This document shows positions 7,579 to 12,937 of a DNA stretch of 64,000 nt, piece by piece. The notes below the pieces were generated by a model that was not told the origin of the DNA, did not search any database, and saw nothing but the letters and a program-made list of their open reading frames with translations. The DNA comes from Ensifer sp. IC4062. Lineage in GTDB: Bacteria; Pseudomonadota; Alphaproteobacteria; Rhizobiales; Rhizobiaceae. Both the position numbers and the translations under genes were made by a program. Positions within the stretch are counted from its first letter, which is position 1. Every line of letters starts with the position of its first letter. The stretch spans positions 1-64,000 of the forward strand of contig NZ_JADYVD010000037.1 of assembly GCF_020193575.1 (NCBI RefSeq). The letters are read 5' to 3'.

Positions 7579-9069
7579 TTACGATGCGCGCCCATCCGTG
7601 ACAGTCACTCGCATCAGCTCGATATCCGCGTTCAGCGGTCGATCGTCCGCATAGGCGGGAATGGCGGCACGGATTCGCTCGTAAAGTGCATTTGTGCGCT
7701 GTGCCCGACCGATCGCACGCGGCTGCAGGTCATAGGCTTGGGCCGCGGCCAAAAGCTCAATGGCGAGGATTGTCTTGAGGTTGTCGAGGATCGCCAGCAC
7801 CTTCGAGGCAGCCGGCGTCGCGTGGGTGAGCATATCTTCCTGCAGGGCAGACGTGATGCCACCGTCGAGGCTGGCGGGCGCGGCGAGGCGACGGTTCTCG
7901 GCGGCGAGCGAGGCCGCGGTGTACTGGGCGATCATGAAACCCGAGGTAACCCCGCTGTCGCCCGCAAGGAAAGCTGGGAGACCGCTGACCAGCGGGTTCA
8001 CCAGTCGGTCGATGCGGCGTTCGGAAATGGCCGCGACCTCCGCAACCGCAACAGCCAGCGCGTCCATTGCCAGGCCGAGCGCGGCACCGACGGCGTGGGC
8101 CTGCGAATGAACCTCGGGCGCCTCGGGCGAACCCGAGACCGCAGGGTTATCCGTGAGGCTTGCAAGTTCGCGATTGACGACGTCACCCGCATTCGCGAGC
8201 ACGTCTTGCGCGGCACCATGAACATGCGGCACGGCGCGCAGGCTCAACGGATCCTGAGTTCGATTTCCTGCAGTAGCGGCGAGCATTGGACTGCCTCGGA
8301 GGTAATCTCGCAACTTCGCCCCGACATTCTGCAGGCCCGCCGAAACTCGAAGCGACAGCGGACCGGGGGCGAAGGCATTTGCCTGGCTACCGAGGTTCTC
8401 ATAGCTCATGGCCGCTGCCGCATCCGCCCAGTCGAAGAGCCTTTCGGCGCGCGCAAGCGCAAGGGCGGCAAGACCGGTTGCACAGGGCGTGCCGTTGACG
8501 AGGCTCAAGCCCTCCTTGGCCTCGAGATGTAACGGCGAAATCCCGAGCAGTAAGAGCGCCTCGGCACCGCTCAACCCGCCCTTGCCGTCGTCAACGCTGC
8601 CATGGCCGATCAGCACAAGTCCGATCGCGGCCGCGTGGGTGAGATAGCCGACGGAACCGCGTGACGGGATGTGGGGAATTAGGTCGGCATTGAGCAGCGC
8701 CAGCAGCGCCTCGACGACCTCGATCCGCACGCCGGAGTACCCATGCGCGAAATTGGCGATCTGCGCCGCCATCACAGCGCGCGCTTCGCTACGCCCAAGC
8801 CGCTCGCCAACGCCGCCGGCATGGCTCAGGATGATGTTGCGCGAAAGAGCCTGCTGGTTCTCGCGGCTGATGACGACATCGCAAAGTGCTCCGACGCCCG
8901 TATTGATGCCGTAGCCACGAATGCCGCGCTCCACCAGCGCATCAACGATGCGGCGGGCATCAACGATCCGAAGACGCGCCCGCTCCGACAAGGTAAGGCG
9001 AGCGCCGTCGGCGATGGCGGCGATCTCCGGCCATTTCAACGGCCCATCGATGGTAATCGTTTCAGTCAT
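7579..9069 (-). CDS. hutH: Histidine ammonia-lyase homologue lacking the MIO triad (HutH2-like)
   Basis: 496 residues, full length for the aromatic amino acid lyase family. Conserved features are YGINTGVG (catalytic Tyr loop), SLVNGTPCATGLAAL, SLRAVPHVHGAAQD, GFMIAQYTAASLAAEN and ALQEDM. The cofactor site is abnormal: where the family has GSVG-Ala-Ser-Gly-Asp-Leu, this protein reads GSVGYLTHAAAIGLVLIG, an in-frame loss of the three residues that cyclise to the MIO electrophile (junction at 8646/8647). Histidine deamination by the known mechanism is therefore doubtful. The ATG at 9069 was chosen since earlier in-frame Met codons overlap hutV. It is the last gene of the importer operon, right after hutV. 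Confidence 0.85.
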   Translation of the reverse strand: MTETITIDGPLKWPEIAAIADGARLTLSERARLRIVDARRIVDALVERGIRGYGINTGVGALCDVVISRENQQALSRNIILSHAGGVGERLGRSEARAVMAAQIANFAHGYSGVRIEVVEALLALLNADLIPHIPSRGSVGYLTHAAAIGLVLIGHGSVDDGKGGLSGAEALLLLGISPLHLEAKEGLSLVNGTPCATGLAALALARAERLFDWADAAAAMSYENLGSQANAFAPGPLSLRVSAGLQNVGAKLRDYLRGSPMLAATAGNRTQDPLSLRAVPHVHGAAQDVLANAGDVVNRELASLTDNPAVSGSPEAPEVHSQAHAVGAALGLAMDALAVAVAEVAAISERRIDRLVNPLVSGLPAFLAGDSGVTSGFMIAQYTAASLAAENRRLAAPASLDGGITSALQEDMLTHATPAASKVLAILDNLKTILAIELLAAAQAYDLQPRAIGRAQRTNALYERIRAAIPAYADDRPLNADIELMRVTVTDGRAS

Positions 9070-9070
9070 T

Positions 9071-9889
9071 CTACTCGGGTCTTGTCTGCCTGCGTTGGAC
9101 GAAGCGTGCGACATAGTCATTTGCCGGATTGTCGAGAATATCGTTCGGTGAGCCGACCTGCACGACCTGACCATCCTTCAGAATGGCAATCTCGGACCCG
9201 ATGCGCAGGGCCTCATCGAGATCATGGGTGATGAAGACAATGGTCTTTGCGAGGTTCTGCTGCAATTGCAGCAATTGGTCCTGCATGTCGCCACGGATCA
9301 GCGGATCGAGCGCGCTGAAGGCCTCGTCCATCAGGATCACGTCGGTATCTGCGGCGAGCGCCCGCGCAAGCCCGACGCGTTGCTTCATGCCGCCCGAGAG
9401 TTGATGCGGGAATTTCGCGTCATAGCCCGAAAGCCCCACCGTCTCTATCCATTTCATCCCGATCTCGCGGGCGTCAGCTTTGGATGTGCCGCGCACACGT
9501 TGGCCGTAGACGACATTCTGAAGCACCGTGCGGTGCGGCATCAGGGCAAAACTTTGGAAAACCATGCTGACGCGTCGCATGCGGAAAGAGCGCAGCGTCT
9601 TGGCGTCGAGGTCGAGAATATTGTTGCCGTCAAAGATGACTTCGCCGCTCGTCGGCTCGATAAGCCGGTTGATGTGGCGCACCAGCGTTGATTTGCCGGA
9701 GCCGGAAAGCCCCATGATCACGAAGATCTTGCCGGCGCCGATCTTCAGGCTGACATTGTTGAGGCCGATACTGCAGCCGGACCGGGCAAGAATGTCAGGC
9801 TTACCCAGACCCTCTCTGGCCATGGCGAGCGCCTTCTTCGCGTCATGGCCGAAGATCTTGTAGACGTTGCGGATCTCGATGTCAGCCAT
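9071..9889 (-). CDS. hutV: ABC transporter ATP-binding protein, histidine/betaine type
   Basis: 272 residues, ProV/OpuAA-like but ending soon after the ATPase core, so without CBS domains. Walker A is GLSGSGKST, the signature LSGGMKQRVGLARAL, Walker B VILMDEAFSALD, and the switch His lies in FITHDLDEAL. It would drive uptake through the HutW permease with HutX. The ATG at 9889 gives an 8-base overlap with the end of hutW. The product matches the S. meliloti hutXWV importer, described as taking up histidine and also proline and betaines; substrate here is inferred from that gene order. Confidence 0.85.
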   Translation of the reverse strand: MADIEIRNVYKIFGHDAKKALAMAREGLGKPDILARSGCSIGLNNVSLKIGAGKIFVIMGLSGSGKSTLVRHINRLIEPTSGEVIFDGNNILDLDAKTLRSFRMRRVSMVFQSFALMPHRTVLQNVVYGQRVRGTSKADAREIGMKWIETVGLSGYDAKFPHQLSGGMKQRVGLARALAADTDVILMDEAFSALDPLIRGDMQDQLLQLQQNLAKTIVFITHDLDEALRIGSEIAILKDGQVVQVGSPNDILDNPANDYVARFVQRRQTRPE

Positions 9890-10739
9890 TGCGGGCGTCC
9901 TCCGTCCGGGGCTTGCCGAAGCCCTGCGTGATGCGATCGAGCACAATTGCGAGAATGACGATGCCGATGCCCGCCTCCAGGCCCTTGCCGACGTCGAGCG
10001 TCTGGATCCCGTTCAGCACCTGCTCGCCGAGGCCGCGTGCGCCGATCATCGAGGCGACGACGACCATCGACAGCGCCATCATGATCGTCTGGTTCAGGCC
10101 GGCCATGATGGTCGGGGTGGCGAGCGGCAGCTCCACGCCGAACAGGATCTGCGCCGGACTGCCGCCGAAAGCGGTTGCCGCCTCGACAACCTCGCCGTCC
10201 ACCTGGCGGATGCCGAGGTCGGTCAGACGGATTAGCGGTGGAACCGCATAAATAATGGTCGCAAGGATCGCCGGCACCTTGCCGAGGCCGAAGAGCATAA
10301 GCGCCGGGATCAGGTAGACAAAGCTCGGCATGGTCTGCATTACATCGAGAACCGGCAAGGTGACGTTGCGCACCACGCGGCTCTTGGCGACGAGAATGCC
10401 GATGGGCACGCCGATCATCACCGAGACGATGGTCGCCATCAGCATCAAGGCGAGCGTCTGCATCGTCAGGTCCCAGAGGCCGAGTACGCCGACTGCTATC
10501 AGCAGGAGGCCGACGGCGATCGTCAGCGTCCAGCGCTTTGAACTTTGCCAGGCAAGCGCCATGAAGGCGAGAATCACGAGCCACCAAGGCAAGCCACGCA
10601 GGATCCATTCAATGAACAGCACGGCCTTCAGGATGACGCCGCTGATCGCCTTGAATACCCAGCCGTAGTTGGTGACGAGAGCCTGAATGAACTCGTTCAC
10701 CGGCCCGCGGATCGAAAGATTGAGAGAGTCCGGAAACAT
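9882..10739 (-). CDS. hutW: ABC transporter permease, histidine/betaine type
   Basis: 285 residues, ProW-like inner membrane permease. There are at least six hydrophobic segments, including one near residues 55-70 (WWLVILAFMALAW) and one near 75-90. The cytoplasmic coupling loop with EAATAFGGSPAQILFGVELP is the EAA-type motif that docks to the ATPase. It follows hutX after 140 bases that hold a strong inverted repeat, and overlaps hutV. Only one permease gene is present, so a homodimer is expected. Confidence 0.85.
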   Translation of the reverse strand: MFPDSLNLSIRGPVNEFIQALVTNYGWVFKAISGVILKAVLFIEWILRGLPWWLVILAFMALAWQSSKRWTLTIAVGLLLIAVGVLGLWDLTMQTLALMLMATIVSVMIGVPIGILVAKSRVVRNVTLPVLDVMQTMPSFVYLIPALMLFGLGKVPAILATIIYAVPPLIRLTDLGIRQVDGEVVEAATAFGGSPAQILFGVELPLATPTIMAGLNQTIMMALSMVVVASMIGARGLGEQVLNGIQTLDVGKGLEAGIGIVILAIVLDRITQGFGKPRTEDARNG

Positions 10740-10817
10740 CGGAACCGTTCCTTAGCTCAAGAACCTGCCGGCGGTTATCGCCGCCTGTTCGCGGCACGTC
10801 GGCAGCTCCTGGCACCG

Positions 10818-10854
10818 CCGCTTCTTTCCGTCAACCAGGGGCGGAAGGAAGCGG
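10818..10854 (-). other. Intercistronic hairpin between hutX and hutW
   Basis: Arms 10818-10830 and 10842-10854 pair over 13 positions with one mismatch around an 11-base loop. No T-run follows on the minus strand, so it is unlikely to be a full terminator. It sits after the binding-protein gene, where such hairpins often stabilise the upstream message so that the binding protein exceeds the membrane subunits. That role is inference. Confidence 0.55.
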
Positions 10855-10879
10855 CAAGCGCAGGCGATGAAGGGTGTCG

Positions 10880-11914
10880 TTACTTGAGGCTCGCTTCGAT
10901 CTTACCGCGTGCCTCGTCGGAGACCCATTTGCCCCATACATCGGACTTGGTCTTCAAGAATTCGGCCGCCGCGGCAGCCGCATCGACCTTGTTGTCGACC
11001 ATGTATGCGAGACTGCCGTTGACGTCCTCGAGCGGGAAGGTCGCCTTTTCGAGGATCTCGATAATCTCCGGCGCCTCGGAAGCGAAGGTGCTGTTGACGC
11101 CGTAGGCGACGTCGACCGAGGGAAAGGCGCAAGCCTGATCACGCTTGCCGTTGGCGCTGCTCAGTTCTTTCCAACAGGCCTCGTTATAGGCGGGTTCTTC
11201 GAGCTGGATCAGCTTGAACTTACCCATGATCGCGGTTGGCGACCAGTAGTAGAAGAGGATCGGCTCGCCCTGGAGATAGGCGGAGGTGATCGCGGAGTCG
11301 AGTGCGGTGCCCGTGCCCGGACGGAAGTTCACATAGGCTTCGCCAAGCTTGTAGGCTTCGAGCTTGGCGGTGCTGATGCCCTCGCAAGTCCAGCCGGACG
11401 GGCAGTTCAGAAAGCGGCCCTTGGACGGCTCCTCCGGATCGGCGAAGATTTCGACGACCTTCGGATCGGAGAGTTGGGACACGCTCTTGAGGTCCGAGGC
11501 TTTGGGCTCAATGTTGCGCGCCGGATCGCCGTGAATGACGTAGTCCGGCACGAACCAGCCTTCGCTGGCGCCGACGAAGGTCTTGCCGACAGCCACCACC
11601 TTCTTTTCCTCTACCGCCTTATTCCAGACGTCCGAACGGCCCAGCCATTCCTCGGCAAAAATCTGAACGTCGTTATTGGCGGTTGCCTGTTCCAGCGTCA
11701 CAGAATTGCCGGGGATGGAATCCACCTGGCAATCATAGCCCTTCGAGAGGATCGTCTTCATGACTTCGGTGATGAAGGCGCCGCTTTCCCAGTCGATGCC
11801 GGCGAAGGTCACGGTCTTGCCGTCGCCGCAGTAGGAGGCGCTGGCGCTACCGGTGGATGCCGCCAGCATCAGACCGGCGGCGGCGAAGGTGAGTTTCATT
11901 GTGCTGATCGACAT
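10880..11914 (-). CDS. hutX: Periplasmic substrate-binding protein of histidine/betaine ABC importer
   Basis: 344 residues with a signal peptide ending in SASA-SYC. It belongs to the OpuAC/ProX-type binding proteins: FAGIDWESGAFITEV, EEWLGRSDVWNKA, a Trp/Tyr-rich region FYYWSPTAIMGK, and a helical C-terminus. The paired Cys residues (NCPSGWTC and later CWKEL...QAC) suggest disulfides. Of two close ATGs, the one at 11914 was preferred because AAGGGGA sits 7 bases upstream; the other at 11920 touches that sequence. It is the first gene of the operon, transcribed away from the GntR gene. Confidence 0.85.
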   Translation of the reverse strand: MSISTMKLTFAAAGLMLAASTGSASASYCGDGKTVTFAGIDWESGAFITEVMKTILSKGYDCQVDSIPGNSVTLEQATANNDVQIFAEEWLGRSDVWNKAVEEKKVVAVGKTFVGASEGWFVPDYVIHGDPARNIEPKASDLKSVSQLSDPKVVEIFADPEEPSKGRFLNCPSGWTCEGISTAKLEAYKLGEAYVNFRPGTGTALDSAITSAYLQGEPILFYYWSPTAIMGKFKLIQLEEPAYNEACWKELSSANGKRDQACAFPSVDVAYGVNSTFASEAPEIIEILEKATFPLEDVNGSLAYMVDNKVDAAAAAAEFLKTKSDVWGKWVSDEARGKIEASLK

Positions 11915-12196
11915 GCGCATTCCCCTTTTTTGATGTTCGCTTCGACTGCAGTTTTGATGAGTGTGCCTGTTAAGGGGCGATTGTTTCCTCTTCCCCGGCT
12001 GTGACGTCCCCGCCGATGTCGACGACGCCAATGTCGTGATCGACGCTTTCCGAAATGGGTCGCCTGATCCTGTATGATGTTGTATATGGAACTATAGATG
12101 TTTTGCGCTGGCGCGCAAGAACGAAATAAACGAAAAGGATTCTTCATCGTTTGCGAAGCATTCGGTCGATACAGCGGTATGGAGGGACCTATCCTG
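11915..12196. promoter_or_regulatory. Divergent promoter region of hutXWV-hutH and its GntR regulator
   Basis: A 282-base intergenic space between divergent genes. The AT-rich part at 12069-12100 contains repeated TGTAT steps (TGTATGATG, TTGTATATGG, ACTATAG), resembling the GT-TA-AC character of HutC-family operators. I see no perfect palindrome, so the operator position is a suggestion. The GGAGGG at 12181-12186 is the ribosome-binding site of the regulator. Confidence 0.45.
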
Positions 12197-12937
12197 ATGA
12201 CGAGAGCGGAGCGTAAGAACGAGAGGGCGGCGTTTGAAGACGGACCGGTACCGCGCTATGAGGCGGTCAAGCACTTTATTCGTAGCCGCATCGAAAGTGG
12301 TGAATGGCCGGCGCACCATCGCATCCCATCAGAGAATGAGATCATCACCGATTTCGCCGTCAGCCGCATGACCGCCAACCGCGCGCTGCGGGAACTCGCC
12401 AATGAAGGGGCGATCACCAGGGTGCAGGGTGTCGGCTCCTTCGTTGCTCCGCAAAAGGGCAGCACGGCGTTGCTCGAGGTCCGCAACATCGCCGACGAGA
12501 TCCGCGAGCGCGGACATACGCACACATCCCGCATTGAGCTGATGAAGCAAGAGGAGGCCACGCCGGAGATCGGTTACTCCCTGGGGGTCGCCACCGGCGC
12601 GCGCGTCTTCCATTCGATCATGGTTCACTTCGAGAACGGGCTTCCGATCCAGATCGAGGATCGTTTTGTAAATCCGGCGATCTGCCCCCGCTACATGGAA
12701 CAGGACTTCACCGAAATGACGCCGAACGCCTATCTAACGGCGATCGCACCCATTACCCGGACGGAACAGATCGTTGAGGCAGTCTCGCCGCAGCCCTGGG
12801 AACGCAAGCTGCTCGGCATTGGCCGGAATGAGCCCTGTCTCATGATCAGGCGCCGCACATGGTCCGACACTGCGAACGTGACGACAGCACGTCTCCTTTA
12901 CCCAGGGACCCGATATCGCCTCGAGGGCATCTCTTAA
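12197..12937 (+). CDS. GntR-family regulator, HutC subfamily
   Basis: 246 residues. The N-terminal winged helix (YEAVKHFIRSRIESGEWPAHHRIPSENEI then VSRMTANRALRELANEG) is followed by a UTRA ligand domain with EIRERGHTHTSR, FHSIMVHFENGLPIQIEDRFVNP and the terminal YPGTRYRLEG. HutC proteins repress histidine-use genes and are released by urocanate. Divergence from hutX suggests it controls that operon and itself. Given that the neighbouring lyase may not make urocanate, the true ligand is an open point. ATG 12197 has GGAGGG at a good distance; an upstream ATG at 12179 overlaps that site. Confidence 0.85.
   Translation: MTRAERKNERAAFEDGPVPRYEAVKHFIRSRIESGEWPAHHRIPSENEIITDFAVSRMTANRALRELANEGAITRVQGVGSFVAPQKGSTALLEVRNIADEIRERGHTHTSRIELMKQEEATPEIGYSLGVATGARVFHSIMVHFENGLPIQIEDRFVNPAICPRYMEQDFTEMTPNAYLTAIAPITRTEQIVEAVSPQPWERKLLGIGRNEPCLMIRRRTWSDTANVTTARLLYPGTRYRLEGIS

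Follow-up and report, generated by a model that had tools for sequence, protein, structure and literature searches.

In our study, the lyase gene directly 3' of hutXWV in Ensifer sp. IC4062 was found to encode a conserved histidase-family protein that is devoid of the MIO-forming residues, and this protein is probably a hercynine trimethylammonia-lyase, which would form urocanate and trimethylamine. Its placement among the imidazole-betaine lyases in general appears a good deal surer, although it is likewise predicted from sequence. The hercynine reading is supported by the residue changes and their conservation, by the operon partners, and by the presence of HutH and of an ergothioneine cluster at other sites in the genome. 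The window, that is, the whole stretch of DNA analysed, was 64,000 nucleotides long and contained the following features.

7579..9069, minus strand: MIO-free histidase-family lyase (HutH2/HutH1 type), 496 amino acids and a stop codon, proposed hercynine trimethylammonia-lyase
8605..8658, minus strand: lyase loop GSVGYLTHAAAIGLVLIG without the MIO-forming Ala-Ser-Gly and the next Asp, from sequence and alignment
9071..9892, minus strand: hutV, betaine/proline/choline-type ABC transporter ATPase (TIGR01186 proV, 347 bits, cut-off 327)
9882..10739, minus strand: hutW, permease of the hutXWV transporter (best match choline permease TIGR03416, 291 bits, below the cut-off of 363)
10880..11917, minus strand: hutX, periplasmic binding protein (ProX-type match of 105 bits, below the cut-off of 215; PDB matches 7yle and ProX 1r9l)
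12098..12937, plus strand: divergent HutC repressor, start codon uncertain (TIGR02018, 297 bits, cut-off 220, scanned from 12188 on)

The lyase frame extended from 9174 to 7579 on the minus strand and contained 496 open codons from the ATG at 9069, which lies one base past the hutV stop. The Pfam Lyase_aromatic model (482 bits) identified a full-length aromatic amino acid lyase, and the protein fell under both curated HutH cut-offs (TIGR01225, 447 against 539; NF006871, 460 against 524). The loop was found to be GSVGYLTHAAAIG, compared with GSVGASGDLAPLAH in histidases; the A-S-G-D of HutH was replaced by a single Tyr and Asp145 is therefore lost too. One scan of genome contigs gave 535 confirmed relatives, and the best 80, which were 58–90% identical to the window lyase, all contained the three-residue shortening with the loop GS[VA]GYL at the same place, so that the HutH-defining Ala-Ser-Gly triad was absent from the window lyase and from all 80. 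Because these 80 read alike, a nine-base sequencing error is ruled out. No shifted Ala-Ser-Gly or Ser-Ser-Gly was found elsewhere in the loop when it was read by eye. The dN/dS of the lyase was 0.09–0.16 between the window and six relatives, the ratios being rough as dS was above 1 in all but one of these comparisons, and gave no support to a pseudogene or decaying gene. The window lyase is a conserved protein, neither an error nor a decaying gene.

The loss of the MIO triad from a histidase homologue, claimed in the first-pass annotation, was thus confirmed, with GSVGYLTHAAAIGLVLIG lying in an intact frame. That the loss is exactly Ala-Ser-Gly held as far as the length of three residues is concerned; MAFFT set the gap at 143–145, the exact triad is one of several equal alignments, and Asp145 is also gone. 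The loop was also said to hold the only length change, which was incorrect, as further small indels were found outside the loop between HutH and the window lyase. The rest of the fold and the frame had been called intact, which is right for the open frame and overlooked a linked pair of substitutions, Leu for Tyr280 and Ala for Phe329. The alignment that it proposed showed a shared deletion (all of the best 80 of 535 relatives) and constraint on other active-site residues (five kept in 86 of 86 rows and Asn195 in 84, with the dN/dS values above); the sequencing error and the shifted triad that it had named were looked for, with the results given above.

The active-site residues were compared in an alignment of 111 proteins in P. 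putida HAL numbering, with Tyr53 as the anchor. The GS[VA]GYL set consisted of 86 rows and contained the window twice (itself and L001), and all counts on it are to be read in this way. Tyr53, His83, Gln277, Arg283, and Glu414 were conserved in all 86 rows and Asn195 in 84, whereas the Ala-Ser-Gly triad with Asp145 was absent in all 86. Tyr280 was substituted by Leu in every row, and Phe329 was substituted by Ala (84 rows, including the window) or Gly (two rows). All 20 ASG-bearing rows, 11 of them by printed tally and nine by eye (eight canonical HutH and one aminomutase), contained Tyr280 and Phe329. The same residue pattern was present in all of 14 further lyases from other genomes, two of which repeat earlier loci, position 329 being Ala in four of them and Pro in ten; in two of the 14, Ile replaced the Leu after the loop Tyr. 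According to PDB entry titles, the mutants D145A, Y280F, F329A, and F329G of P. putida HAL have been deposited. Three positions that were mutated singly at the bench in HAL are all altered jointly in the GS[VA]GYL lyase family. The roles given here to Tyr53, His83, Asn195, Arg283, Glu414, and other active-site residues are those that we take the histidase literature to assign, and the imidazole-binding, carboxylate-binding, and base residues of HutH (Y53, H83, N195, R283, E414) were all present in the window lyase. The changes are selective: the residues holding the imidazolyl-alanine and taking its proton are kept, and those making or using MIO are removed.

The window lyase resembled HutH of P. 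putida (1b8f) in its fold (TM 0.93), in the residues binding imidazole and carboxylate, and in its operon and regulator, and differed from it in lacking the MIO triad, Asp145, Tyr280, and Phe329. An AlphaFold model of the window lyase with 34 sequences (pLDDT 88, pTM 0.90) matched HALs with a TM of 0.90–0.93 and the T. denticola ergothionase (PDB 6s7j) with a TM of 0.91 in Foldseek. In a 2026 survey, ergothionase is described as lacking MIO and as acting on an imidazole betaine with the release of trimethylamine (PMC13405746). The T. denticola enzyme shared with the window lyase the histidase fold, the missing triad, Leu at 280, and the retained Tyr53, His83, Gln277, Arg283, and Glu414. Unlike the window lyase, it contained a loop one residue shorter than that of HutH (three in the window lyase) and kept Phe329, and ergothionase-type proteins contained Ser instead of Asn at position 195. 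In sequence matching with the window lyase, ergothionase scored 159 bits, below the HALs (up to 298). In a tree of 41 rows comparing the GSVGYL group with other lyases, the group formed one clade with support of 81/82, below the star level of the tool, and arose only once in 79% of bootstrap trees. Five other MIO-less rows fell apart from this clade, the exact place of some being unsure owing to long branches, and 6s7j and L084 were outside it. The simplest reading of the tree would be that MIO was lost at least twice.

The importer encoded beside the lyase was of the betaine type. In all 18 HutX rows compared, which came from the window and from 17 of the 18 HutX/W loci (the truncated L028 copy was excluded), tryptophan occupied the positions equivalent to ProX W65, W140, and W188, a trio that we take to be the quaternary-amine box. 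The window shows the features by which a candidate hercynine lyase might be recognised, namely a MIO-free lyase with histidine-binding residues, an adjoining betaine-type importer and HutC, and HutU in the genome.

The neighbourhoods of the best 80 of the 535 relatives were examined with a crude gene caller (longest ORFs weighted by GC3), which misses genes, for example at L012, so that the counts are lower bounds. HutC was present in at least 65 of the 80 loci, HutU, HutI, HutF, or HutG in at least 31, and HutC or any of these four in at least 75; the five loci in whose flanks none of them was called count against the hercynine reading. HutX/W or an opine/histidine ABC transporter was found in at least 67 of the 80 (18 and 49 loci, respectively), and 13 were without a call. 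The opine/histidine type was the commonest importer, and the one binding protein of this type that was compared with the PDB had binding proteins for nopaline and octopine as its nearest matches. These transporters weigh against the hercynine reading and leave room for other N-substituted histidines. A gene of the N-methyl-L-tryptophan-oxidase type was located directly 3' of the lyase in at least nine of the 80 loci (L050, L053, L054, L060, L061, L068, L072, L073, and L078); its longest-ORF start was at most 25 bases from the lyase stop in seven of the nine, and the two members scanned gave 414 bits with the N-methyl-L-tryptophan-oxidase model (cut-off 257). This neighbour suggests that the same operon handles N-methylated histidines, and it was also counted in favour of the hercynine reading.

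HutH and the MIO-free lyase were found to adjoin each other in many loci. On a Klebsiella pneumoniae plasmid (OW849440.1, L086/L102), a MIO-free lyase, whose loop starts with GSVGYL, replaces HutH in the hut operon; its neighbours included a transporter annotated as OpuC-type and a gene annotated as Ves/HutD, and profile scans also identified HutU, HutI, HutG, HutF, and HutC. A BCCT betaine/carnitine/choline transporter accompanied the lyase at two loci from the phylum, L115 (genome G566, 400 bits) and L116 (genome G332, 391 bits), where the lyase was present between HutU and HutI. Three unrelated types of quaternary-amine importer (ProXWV-like, OpuC-like, and BCCT) thus accompany the lyase and HutU in different lineages. 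Scans of six HutUs (L075, L102, L100, L111, L115, and L116), each from a locus of the hut type or from the window genome, identified them as urocanate hydratases, under the thio and S-methyl-thio cut-offs.

A few loci were of a different composition. No HutC or hut catabolic gene was called in the flanks of L024, L025, L036, L056, L074, L108, L109, and L117, and the substrate of these lyases may differ. On an R. beringeri plasmid (L088:7944-9494), a GSVGYL lyase was accompanied, as annotated, by an ABC transporter, a CoA transferase, a 3-hydroxyacyl-CoA dehydrogenase, and an enoyl-CoA hydratase; an acrylate product would perhaps go to beta-oxidation instead of HutU. A further MIO-less subfamily (L091:7944-9449 and L092:7833-9344) contained a loop one residue short and Arg in place of His at position 83, with hutC, a glycine betaine binding protein, and an ornithine cyclodeaminase as annotated neighbours, and is perhaps a lyase for a different betaine.

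The window genome contained two other histidase relatives. Canonical HutH adjoined HutU at a separate locus (L100), where HutI and HutG were recognised by eye only. An ergothioneine cluster contained thiourocanate hydratase (1056 bits, cut-off 930), thiohydantoin desulfurase (594, cut-off 440), ErtE, and ErtD, and these genes adjoined a third lyase (L003), not the window lyase. The best PDB match of this third lyase was ergothionase (190 bits, against 130 for the best HAL). The lyase ORF of this ergothioneine-utilisation cluster is located at 10636-12372 on the minus strand of L099 (G000:C131:83000-102999); it is MIO-less, with the loop GSMGCADIGLM and His instead of Gln at position 277. The genome contained only two HutU-family proteins, HutU and the thiourocanate hydratase, and both missed the S-methyl thiourocanate hydratase cut-off (694 and 739 against 880). 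A lyase on an A. tumefaciens plasmid (L098), 64.5% identical to the window lyase and in the same subclade, was found in a cluster with S-methyl thiourocanate hydratase (NF058531, 976 bits, cut-off 880), S-methyl thiohydantoin desulfurase (NF058532, 555 bits, cut-off 450), ErtD, and ErtE. The L098 cluster points to S-methyl-ergothioneine as the likely substrate there and suggests that substrates vary within the clade, which is a further point against the hercynine reading, although the occurrence of so close a relative in this cluster was also counted for it. Hercynine would be the best remaining substrate of the window lyase because histidine and ergothioneine are already served and the next enzyme for urocanate and its regulator are at hand. 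The best EgtD match in the window genome reached only 28.6 bits (cut-off 290.9), so that hercynine is probably not synthesised by the strain. The search of the window genome for a trimethylamine monooxygenase gave three partial FMO-like matches (60, 38, and 21 bits; Pfam cut-off 22) and no convincing candidate, which also tells against hercynine.

The window lyase is related to genes that carry histidase names. The lyase of locus L011 in S. meliloti, which we take to be hutH2, was 81% identical to the window lyase and was assigned to the same family. The order hutC-hutD-hutU-NCS1 permease-hutX-hutW-hutV-lyase-HutH was found in L111, L112, and L119. HutH of L111 was about 85% identical to P. 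putida HAL across the first 208 residues, the HutHs of the L112 and L119 genomes were 99% and 93% identical to it, respectively, and HutU of L111 matched PDB entry 1uwl, presumably the P. putida urocanate hydratase, with 1180 bits. These three loci were taken as Pseudomonas because of the HutH identities and the match to 1uwl. They share the gene order of the published Pseudomonas hutH1 beside hutXWV, and hutH1 is taken to be a MIO-free lyase on this ground. Published work describes Pseudomonas hutH1 as not needed for growth on histidine, and HutXWV as a histidine importer, the latter standing against the hercynine reading (PMC8871633). In another study, hutH2 is listed among putative selection targets in Sinorhizobium under osmotic tolerance and stress (PMC3410850). 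A loss of MIO or a betaine substrate of hutH2 or hutH1 was not found described in open-licence PMC papers, and a description elsewhere is possible.

Within the order, 249 genomes were compared, and 15 of them, counting that of the window, contained the lyase at 52% identity or more, the next best match being 41%; the 15 span five families, and in the five whose loop was read it was of the GSVGYL type. HutU exceeded its cut-off in all 15 lyase genomes, compared with 125 of the 249 in the order, the window genome being counted in both (hypergeometric P 2e-5, uncorrected for relatedness). Across the phylum, the lyase was found in 23 of 398 sampled genomes. HutH, judged by identity (51% or more) and not by loop, was also present in 58 of the 60 lyase genomes checked (39 of 40 in a first set, one of these HutHs being cut short by the end of its contig, and 19 of 20 in a second set of new genomes). 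Canonical HutH was not found in G566, whose completeness is 100, and in G013, for which no completeness is given. In G013, the lyase was the only histidase-family gene of the hut operon, and a MIO-less GSVGCGDL protein was the remaining relative. G566 contained a second MIO-less lyase (GSLGAADL) just 3' of the hut operon, at L115:4513-6045 on the minus strand (GSLGAADLAQLAQM), and an aryl-type ASG lyase.

We infer the substrate, products, and mechanism of the window lyase as follows. Hercynine (N,N,N-trimethyl-histidine, histidine betaine) would be imported by HutXWV. His83 and Glu414 would bind its imidazole, Arg283 and Asn195 its carboxylate, and Tyr53 would be the base taking the beta proton. 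Trimethylamine would be eliminated to give urocanate without MIO, the electrophile being unneeded because trimethylamine leaves readily by itself, and the loss of MIO, Tyr280, and Phe329 would make room for the three methyl groups. Urocanate would then enter HutU-HutI-HutF/HutG and would also relieve HutC. The suggestion of another chemistry in the first-pass annotation is well supported by sequence, as the residues framing the substrate and those serving as acid or base are retained, the parts making or using MIO are removed, and the neighbours fit a lyase that releases trimethylamine.

Other activities were weighed against this reading. S-methyl-ergothioneine or another 2-substituted imidazole betaine is unlikely as the substrate: the L098 relative lies in a cluster of S-methyl thiourocanate hydratase, desulfurase, ErtD, and ErtE, but both HutU-family proteins of the window genome miss the S-methyl cut-off, and HutC or a hut catabolic gene was called at 75 of the best 80 of 535 loci, Ert genes not having been scanned locus by locus. 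Conversion of ergothioneine to thiourocanate and trimethylamine was our first guess as the main reading and was dropped, as the thiourocanate/Ert cluster of the window genome adjoins another lyase. Ergothionase activity is quite unlikely for the window lyase, which shares with 6s7j the MIO-free histidase fold and Leu280 but scores lower with it than with HALs; the known ergothionase type, with Ser195, is outside its clade, and the ergothioneine cluster has its own ergothionase-like lyase. The opine/histidine-type transporters (49 of the best 80 of 535 loci) and the adjoining oxidase-type gene (nine of the 80) would fit another N-substituted histidine, for example N-methyl histidine, N,N-dimethyl histidine, or an opine of the histopine kind. 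Without MIO, however, secondary and tertiary amines leave poorly, and the ProX-, OpuC-, and BCCT-type transporters of other lineages point to a quaternary amine, which makes such a substrate distinctly improbable.

The first-pass annotation also offered a ligand-binding or regulatory protein, which is not favoured. In histidase tetramers, each active site is built from several subunits, and the HutH and lyase genes adjoin in many loci, as a pseudoenzyme subunit, perhaps in mixed tetramers with HutH, would have it. This is nevertheless very unlikely, since the catalytic residues are invariant, no canonical HutH was found as a partner in G013 and G566, the lyase is the only histidase-family hut gene in G013 and on the Klebsiella plasmid, and relatives with the same loop occur in Ert-type and OpuC-type clusters. 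The least probable reading, to which we give hardly any weight, is a MIO-free ammonia-lyase acting on plain histidine; the histidine-binding residues are retained and the G013 operon contains this lyase as its sole histidase-family gene, but MIO is needed to turn ammonia into a leaving group, and 58 of the 60 lyase genomes checked also contain a HutH as judged by identity.

The histidase names of hutH2 and hutH1 differ from the reading proposed here for the window lyase, and public-record proteins named as histidases were found to lack the triad at L086, L096, and L098. In the 2026 survey, histidase-named matches to the Burkholderia ergothionase are treated as functionally distinct ammonia-lyases, and poorly annotated or divergent homologues are, by its own account, not covered (PMC13405746). 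On balance, we favour the view that hutH2 of Sinorhizobium and hutH1 of Pseudomonas belong to a MIO-free family that evolved apart from ergothionase and has hercynine as its main substrate. Such a family would provide a hut-pathway route from hercynine to glutamate in soil- and plant-associated bacteria, releasing trimethylamine and hidden under the histidase name. A substrate bearing its own leaving group would account for the loss of MIO, the defining cofactor of aromatic amino acid lyases, and the findings suggest that trimethylamine-forming lyases are under-counted.
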